Shown: positions 44,920 through 64,000 of the stretch, piece by piece
Layout of the letters: the number at the start of each line of letters is the position of its first letter
Position numbering within the stretch: the stretch's first letter is position 1
NCBI GenBank assembly: GCA_933207985.1
Contig: OW240916.1
Location: 291,685,514 to 291,749,513, forward strand
Direction: 5' to 3'
Source of the DNA: Pelobates cultripes
Taxonomy: Eukaryota > Chordata > Amphibia > Anura > Pelobatidae
DNA length: 64,000 nt
Program-made: the position numbers and the translations under genes
Notes under the pieces: model-generated
Seen by the model: only the letters and a program-made list of their open reading frames with translations
Databases searched by the model: none
What the model was told of the DNA's origin: nothing

Positions 44920-45182
44920 ATGGTGTGCGCTCCGGTGTCGGTCCTGTCCGTGCTGCTGTGCTGGTGCCTGGCGGTGCGGGGCGAGGGTCTCTGGGAGGCG
45001 GGGGAGGACCCGAGCGTGCTGAGAGCCGAGGAGTCCCCGTACGGCTCCCTGTGGCCGCTGCCCCGCTCGGTGCAGAGCTCTGCCGAGTGCCTCTTCCTGT
45101 CACCGGACAGCTTCAGCATTGTCCATGGCAGCGGCTCCACCGCGGGGCCCTCCTGTGTGCTGCTAGAGGATGCCTTCCGCAG
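44920..45182 (+). CDS. hexb: Hexosaminidase exon 1: signal peptide and N-terminal domain start
   Basis: The ATG at 44920 has a strong context (G at -3, G at +4). It is followed by a hydrophobic signal peptide ([19 protein letters not shown]), which fits ER import. [10 protein letters not shown] is the usual mature N-terminal motif. [13 protein letters not shown] supplies the Cys that pairs with the one in exon 2. The exon ends at phase 2 (AG then GTCAGT). An in-frame ATG at 44839 or 44863 would add a non-hydrophobic extension and is rejected. Confidence 0.93.
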
Positions 45183-48100
45183 GTCAGTGTGCCGGCAGCC
45201 CATAGCACCATGCTGGCACTGCCCGGGTCTACCCATTATACCCTGTAACCTGGCACTGCCCATAATACCCTCTAACCTGGCACTGCCCATAATACCCTCT
45301 AACCTGGCACTGCCCGGGTCTGCCCATAATACCCTCTAACCTGGCACTGCCCGGGTCTGCCCATAATACCCTCTAACCTGGCACTGCCCGGGTCTGCCCA
45401 TAATACCCTCTAACCTGGCACTGCCCGGGTCTACCCATTATACCCTGTAACCTGGCACTGCCCGGCTCTACCCATTATACCCTGTAACCTGGCACTGCCC
45501 GGCTCTACCCATTATACCCTGTAACCTGGCACTGCCCGGCTCTGCCCATTATACCCTGTAACCTGGCACTGCCCGGCTCTACCCATTATACCCTGTAACC
45601 TGGCACTGCCCGGCTCTACCCATTATACCCTGTAACCTGGCACTGCCCGGCTCTACCCATTATACCCTGTAACCTGGCACTGCCCGGCTCTACCCATTAT
45701 ACCCTGTAACCTGGCACTGCCCGGCTCTACCCATTATACCCTGTAACCTGGCACTGCCCGGCTCTGCCCATTATACCCTGTAACCTGGCACTGCCTGGGT
45801 CTACCCATTATACCCTGTAACCTGGCACTACCCATTATACCCTGTAACCTGGCACTGCCCGGGTCTGCCCATTATACCCTGTAACCTGGCACTGCCTGGG
45901 TCTGCCCATTATACCCTGTAACCTGGCACTACCCATAATACCCCCTAACCTGGCACTGCCTGGCTCTACCCATTATACCCTGTAACCTGGCACTGTCTGG
46001 CTCTGCCCATTATACCCTGTAACCTGGCACTGCCCGGGTCTGCCCAAAGTACCCTGTAACCTGGCACTGCCCATAATACCCCCTAACCTGGCACTGCCCG
46101 GGTCTGCCCATAATACCCTGTAACCTGGCACTACCCATAGTACCCTCTAACCTGGCACTGCCCGGGTCTGCCCATAATACCCTGTAACCTGGCACTGCCC
46201 GGCTCTACTCATTATACCCTGTAACCTGGCACTGCCCGGCTCTACTCATTATACCCTGTAACCTGGCACTGCCCGGCTCTACCCATTATACCCTGTAACC
46301 TGGCACTGCCCGGCTCTACCCATTATACCCTGTAACCTGGCACTTCCCCACCAGAATAAGCAAACCGTTCAGATTGCAAGTGTTATTTGTTTTTTTTAGT
46401 ATTTTTTTTTTTTTATTCTCCAACTACTGTGAATCTTGTGGGTTGTTTTTTTTTTTTTTACCACCAGCTTAATGTGTAGATTAAATCTCATCTTTAAGTT
46501 GCAAAATGTGATGCGCACACACAATGCTTATCGCAATGACTCTCCAACCGCATGGAGTTGGTCAGTTATTGATCAAGAGGCAGACCTAAAAAGCAAAATA
46601 TATGGCCCCTGACTCATTCCCACGCATGCTGCTTCTCATGTACCTCTCTATCTGTGCAATCCTATCCTTTCCCCAATATCTGCCTGTCTCCATTGGGATA
46701 GGATGCTAGGTAGTACCTTATGTTTTGCACATTGCAATGCCCATTTGTGGAGTACTGGGGTGGAAATGCACACGAAATGAGGCTTTATGTTGTATGCTAC
46801 TTATTTGCATCTGGCTCCGATGGAGCTTGAGCGTCTGCGGCAGTGAGCTCAGGAGGAAGTGGCTTGTTTGCATACAGCTAGTCTGGTAAGGAATTAGAAT
46901 TTCTGGTGTTTCCCCCTCTTTGTTTCCACTCCCATTGGAGGAACCCCAGAATTTCGTATGTCAGAAGGATCCTGTCATATACTAAAGGTTGGAATGAGGG
47001 GTCTTTTTGGATTACTGGACTGTGATACCTGTATTTTATTTTTATTTTTCTCTTTATTTATTTTGGCCTGTGTGGTTTGACATTTTAGGGACTGCACAAA
47101 CCAATGGTGTTTACATAATCTAGAAGTTGTGTAAAACCATAACTATCCTTGTATGTCAGTAGTTCCTGTGCCTTGCGTGCACAGTATTCTACATTAAAGG
47201 GACACTATAGTCACCTGAACAACTATAGCTTAATGTAGTTGTTCAGGTGAGATCTATAGCTCCCTGCAGGCAATCTAATGTAAACACTGTATTTTCAGAG
47301 AAAAAACAGTGTTTACGTTGATAGAAATACCTCTAGTGGCCGTCACCCTAAAAAGGCCATGTACACGTCATTAAAATACGTCTGACATGTGCAGGAGAGA
47401 GAGGGCACTGTGTGCGCGCCTTCTCTCTCCTGCCTGTCAGCAGAGGAGAGGGGGCGGGCAAAGACTGCAAGCTGAGCGGTCAGTCAGCTCACGGCCGCGC
47501 ATGCGCGGTAGTGCGCTCAGGACTTCATAGGACGGCAGTAATGCCGCCCTATGAAGTATATGCGCGTGTGCAGCGAAGCAATATAAATGAACTATCTCTG
47601 ATCTGTATTTTTGCACTTTTTACTTTTTTATATTTTGTTAAATTATCTCTTTTTGTTATCCATATCCCGTTTTTATATTGCATCAGTCTATAGAGATACA
47701 GAGTTCCACATACTGTGTTGCCAATATACATAGATACATTTATCTTTGACATTTCAAAGTATAATATTTGGAGCAGGCACCATCTACCCTACATTTCATT
47801 ATGGATAGAGATACTTGCTCTGTACATATATTGGCTGCATCCCGATCTAGTAATTTATTTCATTTTATTTTTGGTTTTTATTCTTTCTTTTCTTATTTTC
47901 TACTACCTTCAATATTCTCTCTTTTCCCTCTCTCTGGTTCTATCTATTTTTTTTTTCATTCATTTTTTTTTTTCTCATTCACTTTTTATCCACTATCCCT
48001 CACTGCAATTAAAGGCACAGTAATTATTTTTATCATAATTATTTTTCATTTTTACAATATAATTTTTTTTTTTTTTTTTTAATTGATTCTCCCACTTCAT

Positions 48101-51100
48101 TTTAATTCATCTCATACGATTTTTCACTTAATATATTTAAGCCGCCACTAGCCAACTCCTGGACTTTGCACACTATCTTTTTAGAGTGTTCCTATCTGCA
48201 TGGACCTTCTATGTTAGATACCTGAACTTACATACAAATGGCATCAGAGGGCAGTAGAGCCCCTAACGGGGAGAATGGTAACAAAGGTAAGTGAGCTCGG
48301 GCGAAGGAACGAGGGACTACCACTTCTCTTGAAGGAACATCTCCTCTTTAAAATGGAGAACAGGAATAGCTAGTGTGCAATCTCATCTCTTCCTAGTTGT
48401 CAGGATTACTACTTGATCCAGCACGTAGAATTGTCACACAGATGACTAATGGGTAACATATTACCGTGCCTTAGAATGGCCGGGCTAACGTACTAGAGAT
48501 TAGTCAAGATACTAGCCGAGGTCAGGGGACACAGAAAGGGACACAACGATAAAGGAAAGCCAGAAGTCGGGGATACCAGAATACAGGGAAGTCAAAAACA
48601 AAGCCAAAGTAAAAAAACAGAATATAACTGTTCAGGAACGCACTCTTGGACAACCACTAGGGAATCCATGACAGGGCATTGAGGAAAGGTAATTTTGAGT
48701 TTAAATTCACGTTTTTCCTTTCTGATTGGTCGAGATCGATCTTTGACTCCAAAACGTGCTCCTGCGTGACGTCATGTGCATACCGACGTCAAGGACGTGG
48801 GGGTATATTTTACCGTGGATCCGCAGCATGCTCCAAGTGTCAGTCACGCAGACGCACAGCCGCTGGTTGCAGAGACCGCACGATGCGGGAGTATGTTACA
48901 CTAGTGACGTGATGGTATTCCACATCCAGTAGTAGGATGCCCTGTGCATCCTTTTAGGGCACTAATTGTGGATGAGGAAGAAGCAGTGTTTATGTAGCAT
49001 ATCCTTTAATCTATTTCATTTGCTATCATAAAAATCATAGCCCACTTGATCGGCAAGTTTCACTGTAGATTAACCTCTCTCTCATATTACCTGAATACAC
49101 AATCTCAGATACAAAGGTTAAAGTGGAGTCAAAAGAAAATACTGGGCTCAAAAGATAAATATCCTATTAATCCCTCAGCGAGTCTACATGCATATCATAT
49201 TAAATTAATGCTTAACTCTAATTGACTGCCTAGTGCCACTATGAAGATTCCAAGCCCAATGACGTAACTGTCCCACGGTTATCTCGGCTTAATAAATGTA
49301 CCTGTACAGATAGTGGCTTGCAAGGTCCAGTGCAGATATCCGTGAAAACAAATTCCAGAGAAATAAGACCATTTTCACTCTGTCTTTAAGTTCTGTGTAA
49401 AATAAACAAGCTAACCGCAATGACAACAATTTAATCATATGTAACACAGTAAAGGAGTTTAAGCATGCGTGGGAAAGGCATAAGGCTATCCTAACTATAA
49501 GATAAGGCTAGGGACTAATGAAAGTATTTAGAAATTTGGGCAGACTAGATGGGCCGACTGGTTCTTATCTGCCGTCACATTCTATGTTTCTATGTTTCAC
49601 CAACCATAAAATGTTCTATGTTGAGCATGCAACTGTATACATTAGTCTAGGGGTAGGCAACCTATGACACTCTCTTATTTATGGACTACATCTCACCTGA
49701 TGCACTTACAGCCACATTGCTGGAAAAGCATTATGGGCGATGTGGTCTGCAACATCTGTAGTTCTGGAGGTTGCTTACCCCTGAAGTAGGAGTTCCCAAA
49801 AAGTAGACGCCCCCCCCTATCTTTTAGTTCTTAAAAAATCTAGTAATCTCTAAGCACACAATTTTAAGTTTTTTTTAATGGATTACTTCAGGTACAGAAA
49901 CTTGGTGAGTTATGGGGTTCTGGTGGCTGGTCAGGGTTTACATCTTGCACTTATGGTTGGATTTGTTTTGTTTTTTTCATTGTACTAGGTATTATGAGTA
50001 TATATTTGGATATTCAAAGCGGAAGAATGTTCCCATTAACAAAGAGTTGGGAGAACTACTTCAACTTCAGGTTATAATTACCTCTCGAGACAACGACTGC
50101 CATAAATATCCAAGCATCAGTTCGGATGAATCATGTAGGTATTACCAATACACTGCACTTTTCAGTCTGTATGTTTGTACCTGCAATCCACTTATATTTA
50201 TAATAATCACCACTCTGCGTTCTATAAATCCATAGCTGGAATTTATCATTTATTTAGCTGAACTCGTCATGGAATACCGTTAGGGGACAAATAATCTATC
50301 AGTTGTTTATGTCTTATTTGTCTTATCTTGTATCAAGGCTGAATTACTGACAGGGCAGTCTTTGGCCCAAAATGGTAGGTAGCTTACTGCCTGTAGTTGC
50401 AGAATAAGTGTATTTGGCTACAGGTGTCTTCGTTGAATTTGGAGATATACACAAATTTAAGAAACCTTTGTTTGCTTTGGGTACAGTGTTAGTGTTATTT
50501 ATGACTTATTTAAAAAAAAAAAAAAAAAAAAATGATAGAAAACACTTCAAATAATAACCAATTTGTGGTTAACAGTCAGGGATGGTCGGTGATTAAAAGG
50601 TGCAAACAAGGTCTATGCAATATACAACACCACAGCAGCAACACCAGTCCATACATTCACAAAAGCATGGGATCGAGAAATACCGAACCACATAACGGAG
50701 AGCCAATGGGCCCACATCTTCCGGGCACATAAGAACCTCTCACTGTGTGCCTCCCATATGGAAATCACACAGAAAATTTTGTACAGATGGTACCAGTGCG
50801 CCTTAAGAAAGGCAATCCAAACATACCAGACACATGCTGGCGCTGCCTAAGCGACAAGGGATCTATGCTACATATCTGGTGGTCGTGCCCGAAATTGAAG
50901 CAATTCTGGCTAGACATCACAACCACGATAAGGGAGACCACGGGGATCAACCTCCAGCAATCCCCCGAAATATACTTATTACAATTATTTCCAAAAGGCC
51001 TATGTAGAACCCACACATATCTCATATACCATATCATAGTAGCAGCCCTCCAAACTATTAGTAGACATTGGCGCGACCCAAACCCACCGAAAATGGCTCA

Positions 51101-54100
51101 ATGCACAACAGCATTACAGCTAACAAAACAATACGAACTAATGGCGCGGGAAAATACGGCACCAAAACCATTTATAGTGGCAGCCTGGGAGCTATGGGAG
51201 CAGCACATAGCAAGTACGTAGAGATGGGGCCAATACAGATTCACTCTTTAAGTACGAGACACATAAACCACTCCGACAGCTGAGACCATCCAAATGGGGA
51301 AAACCTGTTCAATAGACCACGTAATAAGAAACGTATGCACCCATGCAATGTACCTAAGAAAGGTATCAGGATATTGCACATACACAGAGCAACTATATAA
51401 GGTAACTGCAATTATACAGGAAATTAAATGACCTCTAGAGAACACTACCGCTTCTCCTGGACCCCCCCCCCCCTATTCTCCCTCTCTACCCTTATTTACA
51501 CCCCACCTTGGTTAAACTGTTAAACAATCAACAAGTTAGCAAGGAATGAGACAAGCATTATGTAACAGGACCGAATATGATGTATACCGATGTCTGTAAT
51601 TAATCCCTGTTGTACTCCACATGTGTCAATTTGTTGATATGGCAAAATGCAAAAAAAAAAAAAAGTGCAAACAAGGGGCCACACAGTAAGGGGGTTCGGT
51701 AAATGAACGGGGATATACGGACAGCCAAATGAAGGGAATAAAAGTATATTTGGGTACTCCATTCCACTAAAAGATCATGCTTCTGAAGTCGCGTTGCTCA
51801 ATTCTCTGCCTAAACACTTCCTTTAATGAGTCATCTAAAATGTATACTTTCTTTATTGCAAATATTTTATAATTTCTTCTCTTGCACTGTTAATAGCTTG
51901 CTAGGCCCTACAGGGGCTTACTGTGTGTATTTAAAGTTCAATTAACAGAGCAGGAGACAAATTTTAGGTTGAAAATTATAGTTTTGCTTTCATGCAGGCT
52001 GTGTCAGTCACAGCCAGGAATGGTGTGGCTAGGGCTGCATAAAGAGAAACAAGTGATTTAACTCCTAAATGGCAGAAAATTGAGAAGTGAGATTTCTGAG
52101 ACATTACCTATACACCAAAACTGCTTCATTAAGCTAAAGTTGTCTTGGTGACTATAAAGTCCCTTTACGTTCACGCTGCCTCTTCGGATAAAAAATACAA
52201 ATACTGACCATACGCTGCACTGAGCATGACTTTTGTTCTGGAGCTGTGGATATACAGTCAGCGTTTCTAGTCTGGAGGCTTCAATGTGTATTCTGTACAG
52301 ATTCAGAATACATTGCATTATTCATTGTGTTATTTGCAGTCATTCCATCTAATCTATTTTAACATCTGATTATTTTACGCTCCAGAGATGGTATACACCA
52401 TATATTCCATAACCTGACAGCTGGTATTTTTTTTTTTTTTCTTTCTGAAATAAATACTTGGTGCTTCCTATAATTGAATATTCATAATTGATTTTGTTTT
52501 TCTTTAGATAAATTAAATGTTAATGGCAGTGCTGCAGTTCTTCAAGCCAGTCAAGTGTGGGGTGCTCTGAGAGGTAATGTTGTTTACTCTTCTTATTTAA
52601 GAGTAGATCCTTCCTTCGCAGTGATCTATCATGCCTGTGTTTTTTTGTTTTGTTTTTTTTTGTGGTTTTTTGTTGTTTTTTTTTGTCCTTTCTAAGCCAT
52701 TCCAGTTTAGCGCAGTGTCCCTTTTACAATTACCAACTTGCTTTATTTCTCCACTGTACAGTGCGGCAGACTGTCATCGCTGTGTGAGTATACGCCTGTA
52801 TACTTACCTGTTGCTTATGAATAGATACAACTTATGCAACTAATATGCCCCTGTAGAAATTTGAGGTCCTGTGCCAAGGTTGCCTTTTGACTTTGTTCTA
52901 TCTAGACAAACTCAAATGTCAACAGCATATTTATAGAACTAACAAAAATGGGTATGTGCATGTCTTAACTTACTAAAAGCAGAATATAACTTGCCCTATA
53001 CAAAACATCAGCAAGGACATGGTCACGTTTAGTCTTTAAATTATACCTCTATAAGATGTGCACTTTTTTACTTTACTATATATGATAAACCTTTCCTTTG
53101 TCTTTTTGCTTATTCCACCTGTGTCCAAACTTACCTTTTTGAATTTTTTGTAAGTCTAGATTTATGTAATCAACTAAAGCATAAAATGTAATTTAAAAAT
53201 AAAATGAAAGCCGTGTTATTTGTTTCTCTCTAAACTTAACAGGTCTAGAGACTTTCAGTCAGTTGGTTGAACAAGATGACATTGGTTTGGTAAGTGTTTC
53301 ATAAGCAACCAAATGGTGTTCACTACTCTAAAACACAAAAAACAAACTGGATTTTGACTCTGAAAGTGCTAGTTCTTAATTATCTCGCCCCAATGTCTTG
53401 TCCTTGCGGTAGGTAGACTTTTTTTTTTTTTTTTTAAACAAACAAAAACTGTGCAGTAATGCGGTTCTGGGGAGGACATACTTTTGAGGGCTGCAATTTC
53501 AGCAGTTTGAGGGAACTCTCTTGGGGGTCCTAACACAATCTTGGGTGTCTTTTGTGAAGTTGGGCAGTACAGGTTTTCTCTCCTTTGACTGCAGGTTGGT
53601 ATTGGTTTTATTATACTGTATACTGCTTATATTGTTACCCGGTAGTGTTATGGTGTAATTCCCATCTTGCTGTTTATTCTGTTTTGTTGGTATGGTTAGA
53701 AGTATAAAGATAAGTGTAGTATTCACGCTCCATCCTTCACCATAGGCCTAGTGTTTGGCATGGAAATGGAAGCCATGTCTGAGAGAGGATTCTGTTTGGC
53801 TGTTATGAACATACAGGGTTATATACCAACGTGAGAAAGTGAATTTCAAATGTATCTGTGTTTAGTTTCCCTGTCTGCAGCCAGATTGTGAATTTAAAAC
53901 CACTCTGTGCCGTTAGGAGCTGAGTTGTCTACATGTGTTTGATAAGGAAGTGTCTTTGTGCAATGCATTAAGGAGGAAGGCTTATGGTGAAGTGCTGCTA
54001 TGGTCAAGGCTAGCAAAACTGAAAACCTATTAAATTTGCCGTCATTTTATTTTGCCTCCTGTATGCTTCCTCCCTTTATCTGGAATCTATGGCTTGGCTT

Positions 54101-57100
54101 CTAGATATATATCAATTCAATGTAATTGTGTTCCTGGCAAATTCGAAGGGGAAGGCATTGTATTCATTGTAGTGCTACCATGACACAGCCTAAAGAGAAG
54201 AGCCAGTCTGAATTGTTTTTTTTTTTTTTTGTGTTAGGATGAAGTTTTATACCTCATCAGACGCATTGTATGATACACTTGCCTTACAGGCATATTGCTG
54301 GTGTCTGATATATTTTACGTTGAGACTTGGTAACGTAGGTGTAACATGGCCTTTACAATGCACACCAAGTGTGCTCCAGTGTTAACGTAATGCGTGATAT
54401 ACACCTGGAAACAATGTGGAAGTACAAAAGACTGAGTTTTTCCACACCTGTGTGCAATTCCCATGCCTCTTCCACCCTTTCCTTTGCAGTTTCGCATAAA
54501 TTATACCCAAATATCTGATACACCGCGGTTTGCACACAGAGGGATTCTGCTGGATACATCCAGGCACTATCTTCCATTGAAGACCATCCTGTTAAACTTG
54601 GTGAGTTAATACAAGATTGTTGGCAGTGTCTCATGAAATGTTTTCTGACTGTAGTTATAACAGATCTTTGTGATGGGATATCTGCAATAGGTATTCACTG
54701 GGATACTCCAGACAAATACTGAGCATTGATTTAAAAATGGCGCTTGGGTTAGTCACTTTATTTTTCAATTTAAGGATACAAATCTAACGTCAAAATGGCT
54801 AAACTGGAAATACATCAGACTTCTTTCAATTCAGCAAGTAACCCTGAATCTTTGAAATGCTCTTCCTGCATGCTAGTAAAGGAAGACCTTTTGATGTTTC
54901 GGCTTTGCTCCATCCGATGTTTCTAACTTTTTTGCCTCTCAAAAAAAGAGGTGGTCATAACACTTTCTTAACAAATAAACTTAAAGCATAACTTTTATTA
55001 CTATATTAAATTAAAAAAAACAAATCGTTACAGCTACAAAACACCGTAAATACGTTTTTTTTGTTTTTAAATCTGACTGCCATTCTGGGGTCAAGAAGGA
55101 ATTTTTTTCCTAGCTTGTTGCAAAATTGTGCTTCAAACTGTGTGTGTTTGTGTGGTTTTTGGGGGGTTGCCTTCTTTTGGATCAACAGCAAAAAAAACAA
55201 ATGTGAGGAAGGCTGAACTTGATGGACGCAAGTCTCTTTTAAGCTATGTAACTCTGATGTAATGGTCCTCAAAAAAAATAAACTTAAATATAAACCAAAT
55301 ATTCTATCTTCCAAAAAACTGATCTGTAACGACTAAACGCTGTGTGCCTTCGAGGGTTACCAAAGCTTAGAAACAGGAGTGCTGAATCTGAATGTAAAAA
55401 TGGACATCTACACCAAAAATGGCCATGGAATCCATTTCTATGACTAATAATCGCAGTGGTGTCCTCATATTGCCAAAGCAGGGAATGGAGCCAAGCCCTG
55501 ATGTGCGTTTAGTCAGACTTAGCAAGCATACAGCTGGTGTTTGCCAGCTCCTTGCTTTGATTTCATTTGTAGCACAATGCAGGTTAACGCGCTGTTCAGA
55601 AGTAACTATTGGGAGTTATCTAAATCTGTATCTCGTAGAATTTGGGGGTGGGGGATGTCACAAACTTTAAAAATGAAGCGATATATGTGAGGGTCCCATT
55701 CACTTTATTGAGTTCTCCACTTTGAAGGCTTAGCACTTCCTTCTATATCACCAACACCATTTGCTCTGTTCAAGTGCTACTTGGCATATACTTTTGTTAT
55801 AGTGGGGGAAAAAAAAACTTGAATGTTGCATGAGATCTGTAAAAACCTTCCATTTAGATTGCTAAGGCACTGATAAATATGTAAATTGTGAGTGTGAATA
55901 TTTCTTACATAGGCCGTCCATCAAGTTCAGTCTTCCTCACATCTGTTTTTGCTGTTGATCCAAAAAAAAACAAAAACCCAGTTTGAAGCGCTTCTATTTT
56001 TACAACAAACTAGGGGGGAAATCATTTTTGACCCCAGAATGGCAGTCTGGTCTCTCCTTGGGTCAAAGCGTGCATAGTAGGAAAGCAATGGCTTTAAGAG
56101 GGGGTTCTGGATACCATCTTAAGAAACCAAAAATGAAATGTGTTGTCTCTTAAATCCGCCCTCCCCCACTCTCAATGCATTATATAGAGAATACATATAA
56201 TAGTATATATTAGCCATTTTTATTAGAGCAATGCAAAGTGCTTGACATTCTTACACTGATCCTTTGAGTGATGTATAGCTATTGCAGCCATTTTATAGTG
56301 ATTTATAGCCATATACTATAAACATGTTTTGTCACACTGTTATTGGCATTGTCACCCATAGTCCGTACATTATTTGATACATGTGTCTGAGTAAATTGCA
56401 GACTGATCATAGTGTGTGTTCATGTAACTTATTTCTCTTCTTGCCACAGGATGCCATGGCCTTTAACAAGATGAACGTTTTCCACTGGCATATTGTCGAC
56501 GACCAGTCTTTTCCTTATGAGAGTATTACTTTTCCTGACTTGAGTAAAAAGGTGAAAATCTTTGTAGTCTGTGCCATCCAAAATCAACACTGTGATGTTT
56601 TTATAATTTTATTTAGATTTCTGTATGTAATAGGAGGCTCATGATGGCATATCTTCTAATATAATCCCCTGAATACAAGCTTGTAGCATGGTGTGTTGGG
56701 TTTATTAATCTGTAGCTTTAATTCTTCACGCAAATTTTATAAATGTTGTTCCTAGGGAGCTTATAATCCGTTTACCCATATTTATACCTTCACTGATGTC
56801 CGACTGGTGATTGAATATGCTCGCCTACGAGGAATTAGAGTTGTTCCAGAATTTGATTCACCTGGACACACTGAGTCATGGGGTGCAGGTATGGTTTCCA
56901 TTCAATATTACATTTTTTTTATTTATTTTTTTTTTTTTGCTTGCTGGCTGTCTGGTAACTGCTTTATATAGACAAGGAATGTGTGGGCCTTATATTAATG
57001 CTCATGTTGCCAGTCATCTGTGCAATGGATGAGTCAGGTATAAGCATATGTATTTGTTACAAGGGAATGATTCCTTTTATCCCTCCCCCAGGGCAACCAG

Positions 57101-60100
57101 GCCTTTTGACCCCATGTTTTAAAGGAGAAGAACTTTCAGGAACATATGGACCTGTAAATCCCATTTTAAATGACACCTACAACTTTATGTCCCAGTTCTT
57201 TAAAGAAATCTCCAAAGTGTTTCCTGATAAATACATCCATTTAGGAGGAGATGAAGTAGACTTCTCTTGCTGGTAAGTTCTAAAAGATTTTTAAAGTGGT
57301 ACTCCTCATCAGCCCAGTAAATGCTATTGTAGTGAATAACGCAGCAGAGGAAATATACCCTTTTTTTTTTTAAAGTAACATCCCATAAGGCTTGATTTCA
57401 CTGCCCCATGATGCCATGGCATCGACAGAGAAATGCTCAAAGAGTGCATGCAGGCGTAGGCATCCCTTTAGTAGTGCTTTACACTCACCTGTGGTACGGT
57501 AATAGTTAATTTTTATTCATGCAAAAGTCAGTCCACATATGTAAATTAAATCTAACGCAGTTTTTGAAAGCTACATAACACACATCCTACCCAACTATTA
57601 GTTGACCATTTTCTACTACAACCGTTCCTCTTTAAATAATTCCGGTTATATCCTTATGGTTCAGTATACACGCTGATATACCAATATAAAACCTGTCTTA
57701 TACTTGCTAAACACATCTTGCATCAGATGAAAATATTGTAATAAACCTTTTGCTTTCCTGATCTAAACGGCTATTATTATTTTTGCAGGAAATCTAATCC
57801 TGATGTTTGCAAGTTTATGGCTGACCATGGTTTTGGCACAGACTACACAAAGTTGGAGTCCTATTATATTCAACTGTAAGTTGAGAGTATTTAGAAAATT
57901 GGGCAGACTAGATGGGCCGTATGATTCTTATCTGCTTTCACATTCTATGTTTCTATACGTACCAGGAAAGGTTAAAGCATGGGTCGTCAACCTGGTCCCT
58001 ACTGCCCACTAGTGGGCGTTTCAGGATTCCAGGTGGGCGGTAGGGATTTTCTAATTTTGACAGATTGGGCAGGCGGGTGCGAGCCAACGGTACCCCTGCG
58101 ACTGGGTACCGCCATCACCACTTGCGGTCCTGGCCCGCGTGGCAAACCGCCGGGCCGCACATGCGGGGGGGTTCATCAGGTGGCCCATGCTGTCAGGGCC
58201 ACCCAATAGATGTGGATTGTAATGGGGCCCAGTCAGCACTGGGCGCTTTAACAGCGTGACCGGGTCCCCTGTGATTACATCACACGCTGGGAGGAAGTGA
58301 CTGCATGTCACTCCTCCCAGCTCCCAGGAACTCTGACTCCCATCTACCTGAGCCACCACTGGATCCCAGGGAAAGTCACCCTCCTGCACCTTAAAGGTAG
58401 GAAACAGGAGGGTGACTTAAATATAATGTGTATGTGTCTTTGTAAGTATGTCTTGTGTGTGTGTCTGTATGTATGTGTGCCTGTCTGTTATAATGGGCTA
58501 TAGTAAGTGGGATTCCTAGCTCAGCCTTCCTACTGGGCACTGCTATAAGTAAGGTTAAAAAAGGGGGGTAGGGATATTGAGGAGGGGAGCTGACGCACAG
58601 ATGAGAAATCATATTATGCGCAAACAGAGAAGTCATCTGAATATCACCGAAAAAGGAGACCTTCGTTTGTTCCTTACAAAAATCGAACCATATAAAATAA
58701 TTAGTCTTGCAGCATCAACCTCAAGGATCTCATTAATCACTAGTAAAGGTAATTTCAATTTACTTTATTGTTTTCTCATTAAACTTTATAAAGTTAAAAA
58801 CATTATAAACATGCATTAAGTAGAAATAAAAAGATAAATGTACGTACATTTATTTTTTTAAAACCCCCTCCTTTCTAAAAAAGATTCTGCACTTGCGCGA
58901 AAACTGGTGGGCGGTAAGGAGATTTTTTTTTTTTTTCAACCAAAAAGATGCATTAGCGGGCGGTAGGTAGAAAAAGGTTGACTACCACTGGGTTAAAGGA
59001 TCCTAATTTCTTTACTTTAGTCAATAGTTTATCCTTTCACTTTAAGTTGTGAGTTCTTATAGCAATAGTTACATAAGGGACACACTTACTATAAGGATAT
59101 TAATGAGAAGATCTGCTGTTGAGTGGTCCCATTGCCTTACCAAATGCTGAATTTGCAGTCATATTCATCTTGATATAAAGGAACTAAATCAGTCTGCATG
59201 CACATTAGAACAGGAATTTGGTAACCGCTTCCTGAACCGGACTGGGTAGAATCCTCTGATCAGAAGTAGGGTTTTCACAGCGCCTCCAAATCTCAACATG
59301 ATCGCTATAAAATAAACTGAATTTAGGCTTAGGTTTCCTCTGGTATGTTCTTAATGTAATACACACTTTTTTTAATTTACATTTTTTTTTCTCCTCCCTC
59401 TTATTTAGACTCTTGCGTATAATTACATCATACAGCAAGGGTTATATGGTCTGGCAAGAGGTATTTGATAACAATGTTAAGGTACGTACATACCTTCTTA
59501 TGGATATCCTCTCTATATAGGCTTAGACACTAGTGCTGCGAAAGTGAATTTTTCAGAAAACTTTTAAATGTATGACAAGTATGCAACTGGCTTTTTTTTT
59601 TTACTTTTTACTGCCCTTAAAAATTGAGTGGGTTTTTATTCTTGCTAAAGCAGAGTTTCTGACACGCCATGCCGGTGAGATAGCTTAGTTGGCTAATGCA
59701 TCATCAGTAGAATCTGTTCAACCTTTGGGTCGCAGGTTTGAATCCCAGCAGAGTTGACTCAGCCCTTCATCCTTCCGAGGTAGATAAAATGAGTACCATT
59801 AAATTGGGTAATAGTAACAACCCCTGTATGTTGGGCTAAGGTAACATCCCCAGAACGTACTTGAAAATCACAGTAATCTGAATGTGCCTTTCCTGGTTAA
59901 ATACTTTGTTATTAACACAGTAAAGGAGTTTAAGCATGCGTGGGACAGGCATAAGGTTATCCTAACTATAAGATAAGGCCAGGGACTAATGAAAGTATTT
60001 AGAAATTTGGGCAGACTAGATGGGCCGAATGGTTCTTATCTGCCGTCACATTCTATGTTTCTATGCCATGCTTTTTGTCCACTGACTTCGATCCTGGTTT

Positions 60101-61470
60101 CCTGTTATATGTGAAAAGGGTTGGAATGAAGAAGAAACTATCCCTTGCTCTTTGCATTATGCGTAAAAGGAAGAGCTATAATGGTCAAAGACAGCTTGCA
60201 AATGACACATCTTCCACTAGCCACCATCTTTAAATGGCCGATATATGTTGGGGCATTACTGACTGTAGCATGAGCGGAACGATGCTATAGGTATATATTT
60301 TTACTTATTTGGGAACCCCTACTTGCAGCTCTAAAACCATAAGCAGTCAATTTTTAATTATTTGTGCTCTTCTACACCTCTAATGTATGGCATGTAACCC
60401 ACTCTAATACTCCATTACGCGACTGGCTTTTAACAGAACGTGACCGGATTCATGTTCACTCCTCTATTGCAATTCTTACAGATTAACCCAGACACAATAG
60501 TGGAAGTATGGAAAGGGGAATCATGTTTTGAAGAACTGTACAAAGTGACAGCGAAAGGGTTTCAAGCTATCCTCTCCGCTCCATGGTACCTAGATTACAT
60601 TAGTTATGGGCAGGACTGGCAGAAATACTATGTTGCTGAGCCGCTAATGTTTGATGGTTTGTTAACTTTTACTATTAATGAAATAAGTAACGCATGTCTT
60701 TTTACACCTTCATAACCTTCATCCTCTAATGCTTGCATAACATCTCCAGTGGAATCATCTTGCTTTTTAGTGTCAGGTCTGTATAGCTTTCAATATGAAT
60801 GACACTACTTACATTTTCAGCTTAAAAATAACTGGACACAATTTTTGTCAGTTCTGACCGTCCCTTGTTTAACACCTATGTACCAAAACAATGACTGCCG
60901 CAGTTTCCCACTCTCAGAATTGCCTGAGCTCCGGGTACAATAATACCGTATAAAGGGCCAGCCTAAGCACTTTAACCGTTATGCATATGGTAAACACTCC
61001 ACTAATGATTCTTCTATTTGTAGTTTAATCTCTAAGTAAATTCAGCTTCCTGATGTCTGATTGGCATGGCAAACATGACATACCTGTTCCAATCACCAGG
61101 AGCTCAGTAAGATTGCAAGATCAGTTTGGGGTCCAGATCAGTGAATAAGTAAAACCATTCTAGATTTTTGTTTTGGGTTCTGAACATACTGTAAAGAGTA
61201 CACCGGTTTGTCCTGCTTTTACAGTAACATACTTTCCTTTTGCAGGACACCGTGTAATTTTGCCCATTAAATAAAAGGTATGCTTAATTCCGTAGCTGAA
61301 TCCAGACACTGTTGTTGAAGTTTGGAAGATGGAGAAGTATCAAGATGAGATGGCAGCTGTAACAGCTGCTGGCTTTCAAGCTCTTCTTTCTTCTCCCTGG
61401 TACTTAAACCGCATTTCGTACGGTCAGGATTGGATCCAGATCTACAAAATTGAGCCATCAAACTTTAAGG
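44920..61470 (+). CDS. hexb: Lysosomal beta-hexosaminidase (GH20), HEXB/HEXA-type, partial gene model
   Basis: The enzyme removes terminal beta-linked GlcNAc/GalNAc in lysosomes, and alpha/beta subunits dimerise as Hex A, B or S. The model joins 44920-45182, 49989-50134, 52508-52573, 53243-53289, 54490-54600, 56450-56551, 56756-56888, 57092-57272, 57789-57875, 59409-59481 and one of two exons 11 (60482-60656 or 61296-61470). All junctions are AG/GT and in frame. The coding length to the end of exon 10 is 1209 nt (403 codons). Catalytic residues in this numbering: Arg199, Asp228, Asp343-Glu344 and Trp394, matching human alpha R178, D207, D322-E323 and W373 with a constant offset of 21. Early exons look beta-like, exons 8 and 10 alpha-like. 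Exons 12-14 (with GGEACMWGE) are not visible and should lie downstream. HEXB is the nearest symbol, and a separate paralogue is possible. Confidence 0.9.
45231..46345. repeat. 37-bp minisatellite in intron 1
   Basis: About 30 copies of a 37-bp GC-rich unit (CTGGCACTGCCCGGCTCTAC then CCATTATACCCTGTAAC), beginning some 50 bp after the exon 1 donor. Subtypes (CGGGTCTGCCC, CGGCTCTACCC, short 23-bp units) cluster in blocks, showing repeated local expansion. Confidence 0.95.
46346..47190. other. Intron 1, no feature recognised
   Basis: T-runs at 46388-46460 and otherwise unremarkable intron sequence. Confidence 0.5.
47194..47580 (+). repeat. TTAA-type MITE in intron 1
   Basis: Starts TTAAAGGGACACTATAGTCA, followed by a hairpin (CACCTGAACAACTA...TAGTTGTTCAGGTG). 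GC-rich inner part at 47490-47570 (GCCGCGCATGCGCGG). Right end not clear. Confidence 0.6.
47581..49435. other. Intron 1, unassigned
   Basis: A T/C-rich tract at 47590-48080, then sequence at 48390-48920 that looks like retroelement leader or LTR debris (TGACAGGGCATTGAGG, CGTGACGTCATG). No gene is supported. Confidence 0.35.
49440..49605 (+). repeat. CR1-like LINE 3' tail
   Basis: AACACAGTAAAGGAGTTTAA through GCAGACTAGATGGGCCGA and CACATTCTATGTTTCTATG. Same tail at 57885-57955 and 59912-60065. Confidence 0.75.
49650..49792. repeat. Short hAT-like MITE
   Basis: Ends AGGGGTAGGCAACC and GGTTGCTTACCCCT are inverted repeats, with a TTATGGGCGATGTGGTCTGC-type interior. No 8-bp target duplication is evident. 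Confidence 0.6.
49989..50134 (+). CDS. hexb: Hexosaminidase exon 2
   Basis: Acceptor TACTAG then GTATTATGAG; donor TCAT then GTAGGT. Codes for (R)[15 protein letters not shown] and ends YPSISSDES, enters at phase 2 and leaves at phase 1. RYYE.IFGY and SSDES are HEXB-like rather than HEXA-like. The Cys in DCHKYPS should pair with the exon 1 Cys. The N-glycosylation site that human HEXB has here (FPNISS) is lost because Asn is replaced by Ser. Confidence 0.92.
50135..50599. other. Intron 2 start, no feature beyond a poly-A run
   Basis: A run of about 20 A at 50512-50532. Nothing else recognised. Confidence 0.5.
50612..51664 (+). mobile_element. 5'-truncated L1 LINE with 12-bp target duplication
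   Basis: GTGCAAACAAGG at 50600-50611 is repeated at 51665-51676 right after an A-tail (ATGCAAAAAAAAAAAAAA). The insert holds the C-terminal end of L1 ORF2: a first short frame, then 50745-51221 with [20 protein letters not shown] (the CCHC-like Cys/His end) and [10 protein letters not shown] frameshift or stop near 50731 breaks it. The insertion lies in intron 2 in sense orientation. Clean target sites and tail suggest it is fairly young. Confidence 0.88.
51677..52507. other. Rest of intron 2
   Basis: An inverted TTAA-type MITE end at about 52050-52170 (AAGCTAAAGTTGTCTTGGTG, then ATAAAGTCCCTTTA). Otherwise nothing recognised. Confidence 0.5.
52508..52573 (+). CDS. hexb: Hexosaminidase exon 3
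   Basis: 66 bp, acceptor CTTTAG, donor AGAG then GTAATG. Codes (Y)[28 protein letters not shown] is the family motif closing the N-terminal domain. NGS is a potential N-glycosylation site. Confidence 0.92.
52574..53242. other. Intron 3, no feature
   Basis: Ordinary intron sequence with T-runs (52641-52690). Confidence 0.6.
53243..53289 (+). CDS. hexb: Hexosaminidase exon 4
   Basis: 47 bp, the length I recall for this exon in human HEXA. Acceptor AACAG, donor TTG then GTAAGT. Codes (G)[22 protein letters not shown] is invariant in the family and begins the link to the catalytic barrel. Leaves at phase 0. Confidence 0.93.
53290..54489. other. Intron 4, no feature
   Basis: No repeat family is recognised. 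The short minus frames at 54315-54634 overlap exon 5 and are shadows. Confidence 0.55.
54490..54600 (+). CDS. hexb: Hexosaminidase exon 5: substrate-binding Arg
   Basis: 111 bp, phase 0 to 0, acceptor TTTGCAG, donor TTG then GTGAGT. Codes [20 protein letters not shown], then [17 protein letters not shown]. The Arg of DTSR (Arg199 here) corresponds to alpha R178, the substrate-binding Arg mutated in B1-variant Tay-Sachs disease. NYT is a glycosylation site at the position used in human HEXB. RGIL and the Lys in LK.IL are beta-like. Confidence 0.95.
54601..56449. other. Intron 5 with two CR1-like tails in opposite orientation
   Basis: 55060-55255 (+) and 55905-56070 (-) both match the LINE tail of 14560-14750 (CATTCTGGGGTCAAGAAGGA; complement GTTTGAAGCGCTTC). 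The pair could fold on itself in the pre-mRNA. No other feature is recognised. Confidence 0.65.
56450..56551 (+). CDS. hexb: Hexosaminidase exon 6: HWH and VDD motif
   Basis: 102 bp, phase 0 to 0, acceptor GCCACAG, donor AAG then GTGAAA. Codes [20 protein letters not shown], then [14 protein letters not shown]. The first Asp of VDD (Asp228) matches the active-site alpha D207. DAMAFNK and [10 protein letters not shown] are HEXB-type. Confidence 0.95.
56756..56888 (+). CDS. hexb: Hexosaminidase exon 7
   Basis: 133 bp, acceptor TTCCTAG, donor GCAG then GTATGG, leaves at phase 1. Codes [31 protein letters not shown] and [11 protein letters not shown]. The EFD.PGH motif is a family hallmark. YNP.THIYT is alpha-like, while VPEF is beta-like. 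Confidence 0.95.
57092..57272 (+). CDS. hexb: Hexosaminidase exon 8: catalytic Asp-Glu, alpha-like loop
   Basis: 181 bp, acceptor CCCCCAG, donor GCTG then GTAAGT. Codes [42 protein letters not shown] and [13 protein letters not shown]. Glu344 in GGDEVDF is the proton donor and Asp343 the assisting residue. Cys298 and the Cys of FSCW match a conserved disulfide. NDT is a glycosylation site. The 301-304 loop (Gly-Glu-Glu-Leu) aligns with alpha Gly-Ser-Glu-Pro 280-283, needed for the GM2 activator. The human beta subunit differs there. SGT.GPVNP and DEVDF are alpha-like. Confidence 0.95.
57273..57788. other. Intron 8, no feature
   Basis: Ordinary intron sequence with a T-run at 57360. Confidence 0.6.
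57789..57875 (+). CDS. hexb: Hexosaminidase exon 9
   Basis: 87 bp, acceptor TTTGCAG, donor CAACT then GTAAGT. Codes (W)[20 protein letters not shown] and [12 protein letters not shown] is alpha-like and GFGTD beta-like. Leaves at phase 2 so that CT+A gives Leu with exon 10. A CR1-like tail starts only about 10 bp after the donor. Confidence 0.94.
57885..57957 (+). repeat. CR1-like LINE 3' tail in intron 9
   Basis: GAGTATTTAGAAAATTGGGC, AGACTAGATGGGCCG and CACATTCTATGTTTCTAT. Only the last 70 bp of the family tail. Confidence 0.7.
57978..58990. mobile_element. hAT element with 8-bp target duplication GGTTAAAG
   Basis: GGTTAAAG at 57970-57977 and 58991-58998 flanks a 1013-bp element. Its ends CATGGGTCGTCAACC and GGTTGACTACCACTG are inverted repeats of the CAGTGGTAGTCAACC hAT type. 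Near the right end (58645-58690) a plus frame reads [14 protein letters not shown], the conserved C-terminus of hAT/ZBED-type transposases, so this is a deletion derivative of an autonomous hAT. It sits in intron 9 of the hexosaminidase gene. Confidence 0.9.
58999..59408. other. End of intron 9, no feature
   Basis: Ends with a T-rich acceptor tract (TTTTTTTTCTCCTCCCTCTT). Confidence 0.6.
59409..59481 (+). CDS. hexb: Hexosaminidase exon 10
   Basis: 73 bp, acceptor ATTTAG, strong donor AAG then GTACGT, leaves at phase 0. Codes (L)[19 protein letters not shown] and DNNVK. The Trp of VWQEVFD (Trp394) matches active-site alpha W373. [15 protein letters not shown] is alpha-like. Confidence 0.95.
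59669..59911 (+). repeat. tRNA-derived SINE in intron 10
   Basis: The tRNA-like head has a perfect A box (TAGCTTAGTTGG, 59681-59692) and a B box (GGTTTGAATCC, 59735-59745). The body then has CAGCCCTTCATCCTTCCGAG and TAAAATGAGTACC. It ends at the start of a CR1-like tail. The tRNA part is not a functional tRNA: it lacks a proper cloverleaf and a CCA-compatible acceptor. Confidence 0.8.
59912..60066 (+). repeat. CR1-like LINE 3' tail in intron 10
   Basis: Near-identical to 49440-49605 (AACACAGTAAAGGAGTTTAA to TCTATGTTTCTATG). Confidence 0.75.
60482..60656 (+). CDS. hexb: Hexosaminidase exon 11a, beta-type (Asp-Tyr)
   Basis: 175 bp, entered at phase 0 after exon 10 and left at phase 1. Acceptor AATTCTTACAG; donor GATG then GTTTGT (weak). 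Codes [15 protein letters not shown], then [19 protein letters not shown] and EPLMFDG. Residues 441-442 are Asp-Tyr. They align with human beta D453-L454, which suit neutral substrates, whereas alpha has N423-R424. The exon also has the human beta length (175, against 184 in human alpha). It carries an extra Cys (residue 418) not seen in 11b. Confidence 0.93.
60657..61295. other. Intron between exon 11a and 11b, 639 bp
   Basis: No repeat family and no exon 12-like sequence. It is too long for simple steric exclusion of splicing, so any exclusivity would need frame-based decay or regulated splice-site choice. A GGTATG donor-like hexamer lies at 61277-61282, just upstream of exon 11b. Confidence 0.6.
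61296..61470 (+). CDS. hexb: Hexosaminidase exon 11b, alpha-type (Asn-Arg)
   Basis: A second, intact 175-bp copy with the same phases (0 in, 1 out). Acceptor AATTCCGTAG (weak pyrimidine tract); donor AAGG then GTGTGT. Codes [34 protein letters not shown] and EPSNFKG. It is 36/59 identical to 11a at the protein level (counting the shared last Gly), so the duplication is old, yet the frame and splice sites survive. Residues 441-442 are Asn-Arg as in human HEXA N423-R424, which bind the sialic acid or sulfate of acidic substrates. Its length and GQDW are beta-like. Confidence 0.93.
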
Positions 61471-64000
61471 GTGTGTGTGGTTTTTTTTTTTTGGGGTTTT
61501 TTTTTTTTGTAATTTATTATTTATTTAATCTAGTAACAAAAATGCCCACAGGTAATGGGAGATGAGGACAGGGCTTAAAAAAAAAAAAAAAAATGCATAA
61601 GTCGCCTTGTTCCACCTTTCCTGTCATTTTATATAATCATGCCCCTGCAGTCTACGTGCTCAATTCACCGCTATTAAGGAGTTAAATACCCATTGTTTCT
61701 GTTTATGCAGCCCTAGCCACACAGCATGCATGAAAACAAAATGGTTTCATTTTCAATCAGATGTTAACTTACTTTAGAATTTTTGCTCTGTAAATTGAAC
61801 TTTAATCACACACAGTAGGCTCCTGCAGGATCTAGCAAGCGATTAACAGTGCAGAAGATAAATTCTAAATTAAAAAATTTGCAATAAATGAAGGATAAAC
61901 ATTAGATTTCACTTCACAGGAAGTGTTTAGGAAGGCTTTACACTTGCATACAGGGAGGTGTGACTAGGGCTGCATAAACCAAAGTGATTTAACTCCTAAA
62001 TTGCAGAGAACTCTGCAGGGGCATGATCTGTACACAAAAACTACATAATTAAGCTAAAGTTGTTTTGGTGACTATAGTATCCCTTTAAATTGGGCCAGTG
62101 CAGAGGTGTGACCATACTTGCGGCATATTGTTTCCGTTTTACAATCAAAGCCGTTTCTAGATCACCTGAATGTATTGTTGGCCCCTCCCCATAGGCCACA
62201 CAAAATATAGTGCTGTGCAAATAGAGCAGAATGACTTTGGGGGGTGAACAATAAATATATATAATCTCTATACGAACGACAAACACAGGTTAGTGTTGAA
62301 CATCACATTGCCTGTGCAGACCTACTTCCCATAAATGACACGTTCCTAGCCTGATTCCCTCACATGACTTGGCTATGAAAGTACTGTTTAGTAGATATCC
62401 AGTGGTGGGTTCTGGGCTGCATGGGTCTGGAGCTTAACAGGAAAAGCAGGTTTTCCATTGTCATAGCATTTATGCACGTGGCCAACCTACTGCTAGTCTA
62501 CACAACATCTGGCTTTGGCACACCTCAATGCATAGTGCAGACTGGAAACCATTCATAAAAATACATTAATATGATGCTGTCACTAGAGGGATGCTCCAAT
62601 TTTATTTCATGATTAATAAAAAAAAAACAAGAAAATGTTTCCTTTGGACCTTTGAAATTGGTGCCAACAGACTCCATATTAAAGCAGAAAGATAAGTCCT
62701 GCGCTCACTACCATCACTGGGCCGTCAGCAATGACTACAGTACACATCAGCCCCAATATATCGTAGAAGAACAAAGAAAAAAAAGTTACCTGCGCTCGCT
62801 CCTTAATACCTATATATTTTTAAACAAATGAAGGTTTTTGTGTTCCCTTCAATGGCCATGAGAGGATGAGCCCACCTGCCAACATCAAGGCATACCCCCA
62901 AGGTGGGTCCTAACGCTAACCATTCACCTTTCTTCCTTGAGCCTCTGGCAAAAATCTATAATGAGTCAGGTATTTTTATATACACCCCTATATATTATTA
63001 ACCCTTAATAGGGGAACACATGGGATGGGCGACTCCATATTAAAGCATAGGCCTGGAGCTGCAGCTCCAATAGCCCTATGTTAATCTGACCCTGGATGTG
63101 CTCCTGCATAGGAACATTTGATTAATAACACTAAGCTGCATTTTAGTTTGCAGATGGTACAATTTATTTTCTATTACATCTTTGATATACACATTATTCC
63201 TTCCCCCACTCGTGGGCTGTTTCTCTTCCTCCATTGTGGTGGCATTTGAAGAGTTCTATTTTTATTTATTTTTTGACCATTTCCATTTCTTTCCCTTTCA
63301 GTATCTGTGCATCCCTCCCTCCATCCTTCAGTCTCCCATCTTAGCCTGTGTTCTCGTTGGATCTGCAAAGAGCTGTAGTTACCTGCTGGTCACTCATGCA
63401 CCATTCTCAATGCATGTGTACGGGTTTGATTAAAATTGCAGCATTACTCTGCTACATACATGGCAGGTGCTTCCATTCACGTGTGTGCAAACGGTTTCCT
63501 TCTTTCATTTTGGGAAGCACTGCACATACAACTTGTCTCCCACTGAAATAAAGGGGTGCTTATTAAGAGAATGACACTCTGCAGCTCTTTGACAAATTTA
63601 GTCATGTTTAAGCCCTCTGTGAGATCTTGTGCTTGAGTCCCCAGACAAGGCTGGTATCCTGTCAGAAATCCTGAGTAACTTTGCATGCATGCGAGCATCT
63701 TGTTGCACTTATTGTGCATGGCTACCTGCAGTATATGCTTGCAGGCTGTGCCAGGTATATTAATCTTCTTACTGGGATTTTTAGTGGTTCATGAGTTTTG
63801 ACACACTGCCTTACCTATTCTGTACTGTTTTATCCATCCATGTATCTCCCTAATAGACCAAGATATAACCATTCTCTGCATGATTATGGCTTTACTTCCA
63901 GAAACTGCTCCAGAGATGCTGTTAGCATGCACGCTGTAATCTTTACTTTAAAATGTAGTATTTCCTTCTCTGTGAGAACTGTGCATGGAGTGGAAGGAAC
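61471..64000. other. Intron 11 onward; no further exon seen
   Basis: No sequence encoding GGEACMWGE or the later exons is visible, so the 3' part of the gene lies past the window. An inverted TTAA-type MITE end is at about 62030-62090 (AAGCTAAAGTTGTTTTGGTG, then CCCTTTAA). The remaining sequence is unassigned. Confidence 0.6.

Follow-up and report, generated by a model that had tools for sequence, protein, structure and literature searches.

A single toad HEXB gene with beta-type and alpha-type copies of exon 11, a probable splice switch between neutral and charged substrates

To characterize a hexosaminidase gene of the toad Pelobates cultripes, we analysed a 64,000-nucleotide stretch of its genome (the window; GenBank assembly GCA_933207985.1, contig OW240916.1, positions 291,685,514 to 291,749,513, forward strand), and found two adjacent, homologous copies of exon 11 in HEXB, here called 11A and 11B. 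We put the probability at about 0.8 that the two are a mutually exclusive pair, one copy per mRNA, whose choice switches the enzyme between a preference for neutral and for charged substrates. A new observation is that 11A and 11B carry different amino acids at both positions by which the human enzymes select substrate charge, and because of this difference the exon probably switches the enzyme between HEXB-like and HEXA-like substrates; the switch in specificity of the toad protein itself we infer from these residues. The features that define the pair are as follows, in window coordinates.

59409 to 59481, plus strand: HEXB exon 10, 73 nucleotides, the upstream exon common to both isoforms
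60482 to 60656, plus strand: HEXB exon 11A, 175 nucleotides, beta-type
60657 to 61295, plus strand: intron between 11A and 11B, 639 nucleotides
61296 to 61470, plus strand: HEXB exon 11B, 175 nucleotides, alpha-type

Each copy is bordered by AG and GT. As exons 1 to 10 total 1209 nucleotides, both copies have phase 0 at entry, and both are left in phase 1. They share 104 of 175 nucleotides and 35 of 58 complete codons, or 36 of 59 residues when the glycine split with exon 12 is included, and reading the exons anew confirmed this arrangement as the first-pass annotation had described it. That annotation had also argued that using both copies or neither would shift the frame, and this is borne out: joint inclusion shifts the frame to a stop at codon 469, 351 nucleotides before the last exon junction, and joint skipping shifts it to a stop at codon 412, 172 nucleotides before that junction. 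An early stop upstream of the last exon junction leads to mRNA decay by the usual junction rule, and both products are therefore likely targets of nonsense-mediated decay. With exons 12 to 14, the 11A-only and 11B-only isoforms are 546 amino acids each.

The strongest support for one copy per mRNA comes from proteins of related species. The homologue search was limited to the best 120 of 6,805 matches, whose entries are clusters at 90% identity in which further isoforms may be hidden. Among these matches, B-type exon 11 is found in proteins from 14 frog species other than that of the window, from Ascaphus to Dendrobates, and in many fish, so that the pair which the annotation had proposed to look for in other HEX genes is present in both groups. 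Eight species (Ascaphus, Dendrobates, Anomaloglossus, Labrus, Tautogolabrus, Xyrichtys, Conger and Labeo) hold A-type and B-type proteins without a single difference over the 482 to 512 residues aligned outside exon 11, and with 32 to 35 of 59 residues shared inside it. Both proteins are named as isoforms in seven of the eight, the B-type protein of Conger being a 'hypothetical protein'. Database isoforms of this kind are as a rule backed by RNA evidence. Thirteen pairs were compared to reach this count, and those set aside involved Lates with a fused model, Polyodon proteins from different contigs, a sturgeon comparison that joined two species, and Scophthalmus, B-type in both proteins. Because proteins of eight species differ in nothing but the type of their exon 11, A or B, mutually exclusive use of 11A and 11B is very likely, as the annotation had supposed. 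Where models fuse both exons, which is so for 11 from fish and one from a frog, A precedes B. In the congeneric P. fuscus, isoform X2 carries 11B, and we infer that P. cultripes itself uses both exons. A further pair set aside is that of Pelodytes ibericus, whose two HEXB-like proteins, P0010 (B-type) and P0032 (A-type), come from contigs of equal length, agree at 382 of 479 positions outside exon 11 and are perhaps two genes that divided the exon pair.

The substrate side of the proposal rests on the human enzymes, in which the cutting of anionic substrates depends primarily on alpha N423-R424 as against beta D452-L453, and in which a beta chain given N-R plus loop residues gains hydrolysis of MUGS (PMC3587417). 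The exon 11 segment corresponds to human alpha Y421, N423 and R424 and to human beta Y450, D452 and L453, and at the two charge positions 11A reads D-Y, the beta-type pair, and 11B reads N-R, the alpha-type pair. We then tabulated these positions in 240 segments from 228 proteins, including HEXA proteins taken from the best 120 of 4,308 matches to the human alpha chain; segments were typed by the downstream pattern and not by the pair itself, proteins that lacked the motif or ended short fell out, and teleost HEXA proteins collected later were excluded. Among the matches listed, A-type HEXB segments have D in 71 of 71 and B-type HEXB segments N in 65 of 65 (63 NR, 2 NF); HEXA B-type segments have N in 103 of 103, and the single A-like HEXA segment reads N-L. 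The substrate tyrosine is identical in 11A and 11B, and the isoleucine and tyrosine named for dimerisation (PMC2492878) are unchanged in both copies.

On this basis, each mRNA would take either 11A or 11B, and faulty mRNAs would be removed by nonsense-mediated decay. 11A would build an acidic beta-type site (D-Y) favouring neutral N-acetylhexosaminides, 11B an alpha-type site (N-R) accepting sulfated or sialylated substrates such as MUGS and perhaps GM2, and mixed A/B dimers might act like Hex A. An exclusive pair could instead alter stability, dimer pairing, folding or expression level and leave substrate charge alone; apart from the D/N and Y/R changes, the copies disagree at 21 of 58 residues, several of them in the loop after VEVWK. 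AlphaFold2 models (mean per-residue confidence, pLDDT, 84.8 for P. fuscus isoform B and 82.9 for P. cultripes isoform A) leave residues 440 to 442 of isoform B poorly resolved, so the predicted site may depend on the dimer. We nevertheless regard a role apart from charge as improbable, since the split between D and N-R is near absolute over 136 HEXB segments and falls on the very residues to which charge specificity is attributed in human hexosaminidases (PMC3587417).

Both copies appear to have been kept by purifying, long-term selection, a view that the annotation had drawn from both being intact despite strong divergence and that the comparisons support. Between 11A and 11B synonymous sites are saturated (proportion of synonymous differences, pS, 0.80), with a nonsynonymous divergence (dN) of 0.40. 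When the same 71 differences were placed neutrally, none of 20,000 simulations retained 35 of 58 residues (best 27), and 1,322 of 20,000 outcomes were free of stops. Compared with P. fuscus isoform X2, the window's 11B is identical at 58 of 58 residues, and exons 2 to 10 are identical at 306 of 315. In sets picked by hand, frog exon 11 has a mean pairwise identity of 0.797 for A-type (n = 20) and 0.839 for B-type (n = 12), in both sets surpassed by exon 6 alone; the fish values are 0.784 for A-type (n = 17) and 0.761 for B-type (n = 31), below each of exons 3 to 10 for both types. A chance or pseudo-exon origin was also considered and is ruled out by the neutral simulation together with this conservation.

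A simple consensus score was applied to the splice sites of the gene. The lowest score among the 14 donors belongs to 11A (72.3) and the lowest among the 14 acceptors to 11B (76.2), and these two sites, which would join 11A to 11B, may by their weakness discourage joint use. This is a hint only, as both are also needed for normal junctions. Incompatibility of the two sites through the minor spliceosome was dropped as an explanation; the exon 10 donor, gtacgt, looks ordinary by eye. Short inverted repeats close to 11B were a further candidate, as possible RNA switches, and were set aside.

Several observations weigh against a functional switch of the kind we favour. The 11B acceptor has a poor pyrimidine tract, so 11B inclusion may be low. 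Among the matches listed no B isoform of P. cultripes is seen, and its HEXB protein P0001 carries 11A; this entry stands for a cluster of seven sequences, among which a B isoform may be concealed. The missing isoform and the weak acceptor are what one would expect if the toad's 11B were a relic not spliced at useful levels, whether its frame is open by accident or it was disabled recently. Such decay seems very improbable to us given the 58 of 58 identity with P. fuscus, the 0 of 20,000 simulations and the B-type exons of the 14 other frog species. As for substrates, position 424 is Arg in 58 of 103 HEXA segments among the matches listed (P0121 to P0228), with 26 NH, 8 NV and others, and newt 11B reads N-F; the alpha role therefore does not strictly require Arg. 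In teleost HEXA, the A-type exons have D within a rebuilt loop, YLDQPGPTHDW or similar (P0243, P0248, P0250), so the pair is not simply a charge reader everywhere, and these teleost isoforms, with their altered active-site loop, may have a new activity or none. Finally, the human hybrids H1 and H2 gained MUGS activity and showed no GM2 hydrolysis with the human GM2 activator protein (PMC3587417), and GM2 turnover by isoform B therefore cannot be assumed.

The remaining exons of the gene were placed as listed below, the last three in numbering extended beyond the window.

44920 to 45182, plus strand: HEXB exon 1, 263 nucleotides, coding part counted from the ATG there
49989 to 50134, plus strand: HEXB exon 2, 146 nucleotides
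52508 to 52573, plus strand: HEXB exon 3, 66 nucleotides
53243 to 53289, plus strand: HEXB exon 4, 47 nucleotides
54490 to 54600, plus strand: HEXB exon 5, 111 nucleotides
56450 to 56551, plus strand: HEXB exon 6, 102 nucleotides
56756 to 56888, plus strand: HEXB exon 7, 133 nucleotides
57092 to 57272, plus strand: HEXB exon 8, 181 nucleotides, with the partly alpha-like loop GEELSGT at the GM2-activator-binding loop
57789 to 57875, plus strand: HEXB exon 9, 87 nucleotides
65090 to 65180, 65560 to 65664 and 66692 to 66752: HEXB exons 12, 13 and 14, just past the window end

Isoform A of the window matches part of P0001 letter for letter, P0001 beginning at an ATG 57 nucleotides upstream of 44920. 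The GH20 hexosaminidase profiles for the catalytic domain and domain 2 (PF00728, PF14845) score above cut-off in P0001 (A) and in P. fuscus P0002 (B), in keeping with the annotation's call of a hexosaminidase gene. In a tree of 52 rows built outside exon 11, the window gene falls in the HEXB clade (100/100) and not in the HEXA clade (100/98), and on this placement the gene is HEXB rather than HEXA.

11B might be the only alpha-type site that this toad has. HEXA was not found in the P. cultripes assembly with salamander, caecilian and turtle queries, in a search of one assembly that scored the best candidates and included no control gene adjoining HEXA. All matches of these queries (8 of 8, 10 of 10 and 10 of 10, respectively) lie inside the single HEXB gene, as do all 13 matches of a P. 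fuscus HEXB query, and each of the three HEXA queries scores 11B above 11A (59 against 52%, 66 against 50% and 61 against 52% identity). HEXA has thus likely been lost in this toad, judging by these searches. A HEXA gene that is missing from the assembly or escaped the search, in which case 11B would not be the sole alpha-type site, is the unlikely alternative; it gains some room from the limits of the search, and the absence of frogs among the HEXA matches listed is weak evidence, as teleost HEXA, which exists, is also absent there. The queries nevertheless detected exons down to 44% identity, all of them within HEXB.

The sequence of isoform B resembles an engineered human enzyme. Taken alone, 11B has as its best PDB sequence match 5bro, and 11A has wild-type human beta. 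Entry 5bro, titled 'modified HexB (modB)', is human beta into which N-R and a GSEP loop were introduced, and modHEXB is described as beta with DL452-453NR and RQNKLDS312-318GSEPSGT (PMC13198282). The exon 8 loop of the window, GEELSGT, agrees by eye with GSEPSGT at 5 of 7 positions, and because N-R is joined to this loop, toad isoform B can be seen, at the sequence level, as modHexB's natural counterpart. Among fold matches, too, 5bro ranks first for the P. fuscus isoform B model (E 1.2e-74), with wild-type beta close behind (4.7e-74). Mean agreement with the loop, out of 7, is 5.3 in fish HEXB (n = 72), 3.4 in frog HEXB (n = 35), 3.8 in amniote HEXB (n = 11) and 0 in human beta. No correlation was found between an alpha-like activator loop and the presence of 11B across fish, frog and bird or reptile HEXB, because the 11 bird and reptile loops are also partly alpha-like (mean 3.8 of 7). 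Toad isoform B is thus like modHexB, H1 and H2 in having N-R plus a partly alpha-like loop, and unlike them in being natural, made by splicing and reversible by exon choice, its likeness being one of sequence. In Sandhoff mice, modHexB lowered GM2 (PMC13198282).

Next, we asked where the exon pair came from. HEXA proteins for this purpose included 55 found with a sturgeon A+B model as query. The HEXA models of Acipenser ruthenus and A. sinensis contain A then B, and in A. ruthenus HEXA isoform X2 (P0230) the A-type exon is joined to exon 12. In Polyodon, the A-type HEXA isoform X2 ends in unrelated sequence (P0231) and the B-type protein (P0219) comes from another contig, so these do not show a pair within one paddlefish gene. 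Among 17 teleost HEXA proteins, three (Metynnis, Danionella, Labeo) have both types, 13 have the A-type alone, a share that is not representative since they came from the A+B query, and one (Denticeps P0247) has an A-type start joined to a B-type end. As HEXA models from sturgeon and some teleosts contain both types, the exon duplication may predate the HEXA/HEXB split. The first tyrosine of the YY motif is absent from 25 of 26 HEXB-B and 21 of 21 HEXA-B segments and present in 28 of 28 HEXB-A segments and 7 of 8 outgroup rows, two of which (P0251, P0255) were taken as invertebrate; B-type loops are longer in both genes of fish, and frog HEXB-B loops are no longer than A-type ones. The missing tyrosine and the longer fish loops favour one duplication before the split. 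Nine outgroup proteins, seven of them from named invertebrates, have N with L, I or Y at the charge pair. Amniote HEXB is A-type (n = 11, among the matches listed) and the amniote HEXA segments shown are B-type, a pattern consistent with reciprocal loss.

We therefore offer, tentatively and at a little under even odds, a history in which an ancestral vertebrate HEX gene had both exon types, human HEXA and HEXB lost opposite exons, and toad HEXB still makes both, its 11A/11B dimers serving as Hex A. Separate duplications in HEXA and HEXB, or a similarity kept by conversion, are a somewhat doubtful but serious competitor. A first exon-11 tree (93 hand-picked segments, 92 of them different) joins HEXB-A with HEXB-B (90/90), as separate duplications would have it. 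For constrained trees and approximately unbiased (AU) tests 13 segments were dropped (2 outgroup, 11 teleost HEXA), and the tests reject neither arrangement (p 0.47 to 0.65); the tree held to unite HEXB-A with HEXA-A scores 4.15 log units above the free search, a difference that is not significant. With 61 columns, too few for the purpose, trees cannot settle the ancestry of the exon. Separate events would, however, have had to strike the same position in both genes and produce the same A-then-B order, and they would leave to coincidence the tyrosine missing from both B-types, the longer fish loops in both genes and the preference of HEXA queries for 11B.

The toad pair can be set beside known systems. 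In human HEXA and HEXB, two genes supply what is one alternative exon in the toad, 11A being like the beta-type segment and 11B like the alpha-type segment at the charge pair. U2AF1 (PMC5224494) and OGDH (PMC7969005) have mutually exclusive homologous exons that arose by tandem duplication and are old and conserved. The toad pair is similar in its adjacent homologous exons, here equal in length and phase, and in isoforms that differ only in the swapped segment; unlike in those genes, as far as the available parts of these papers tell, the swap alters two charge-reading residues that are divided between human paralogues. HEXA and HEXB are not named as cases of mutually exclusive exons in the abstract openings of three surveys (PMC5740500, PMC9741552, PMC7954323), and we found no description of the pair among the titles and abstract openings listed by searches of the open-licence literature. 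The annotation's statement that no such pair had been described in HEXA or HEXB holds in this respect, and needs amending in another, as the isoforms already exist in database records; the pair is therefore undescribed rather than unseen. In a reef fish, hexb is differentially spliced (PMC8933327), the type of event not being given in the part of that paper available.

Tay-Sachs and Sandhoff disease have their basis in the division of lysosomal hexosaminidase into alpha and beta, and what humans divide between two genes would here be an exon choice in one, RNA splicing perhaps doing what two genes do. With such a system one can test directly if splice isoforms can take the place of gene duplicates and vice versa; it also offers putative natural single-gene enzymes resembling modHexB, itself at the preclinical stage for gene therapy, and calls into question the statement that all vertebrate HEX genes have 14 exons. 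If the splice choice is indeed ancestral, the Tay-Sachs and Sandhoff genes would be two halves of an old exon choice.

Lastly, the gene carries repeats. Intron 1 holds a minisatellite (45232 to 46348) of about 30 copies of a 37-bp unit. Two copies of a 75-nucleotide dispersed element, 92% identical, lie in introns 9 (57882 to 57956) and 10 (59990 to 60064), and a 22-nucleotide inverted repeat, 95% complementary, lies downstream of 11B (61701 to 61722 and 61958 to 61979).

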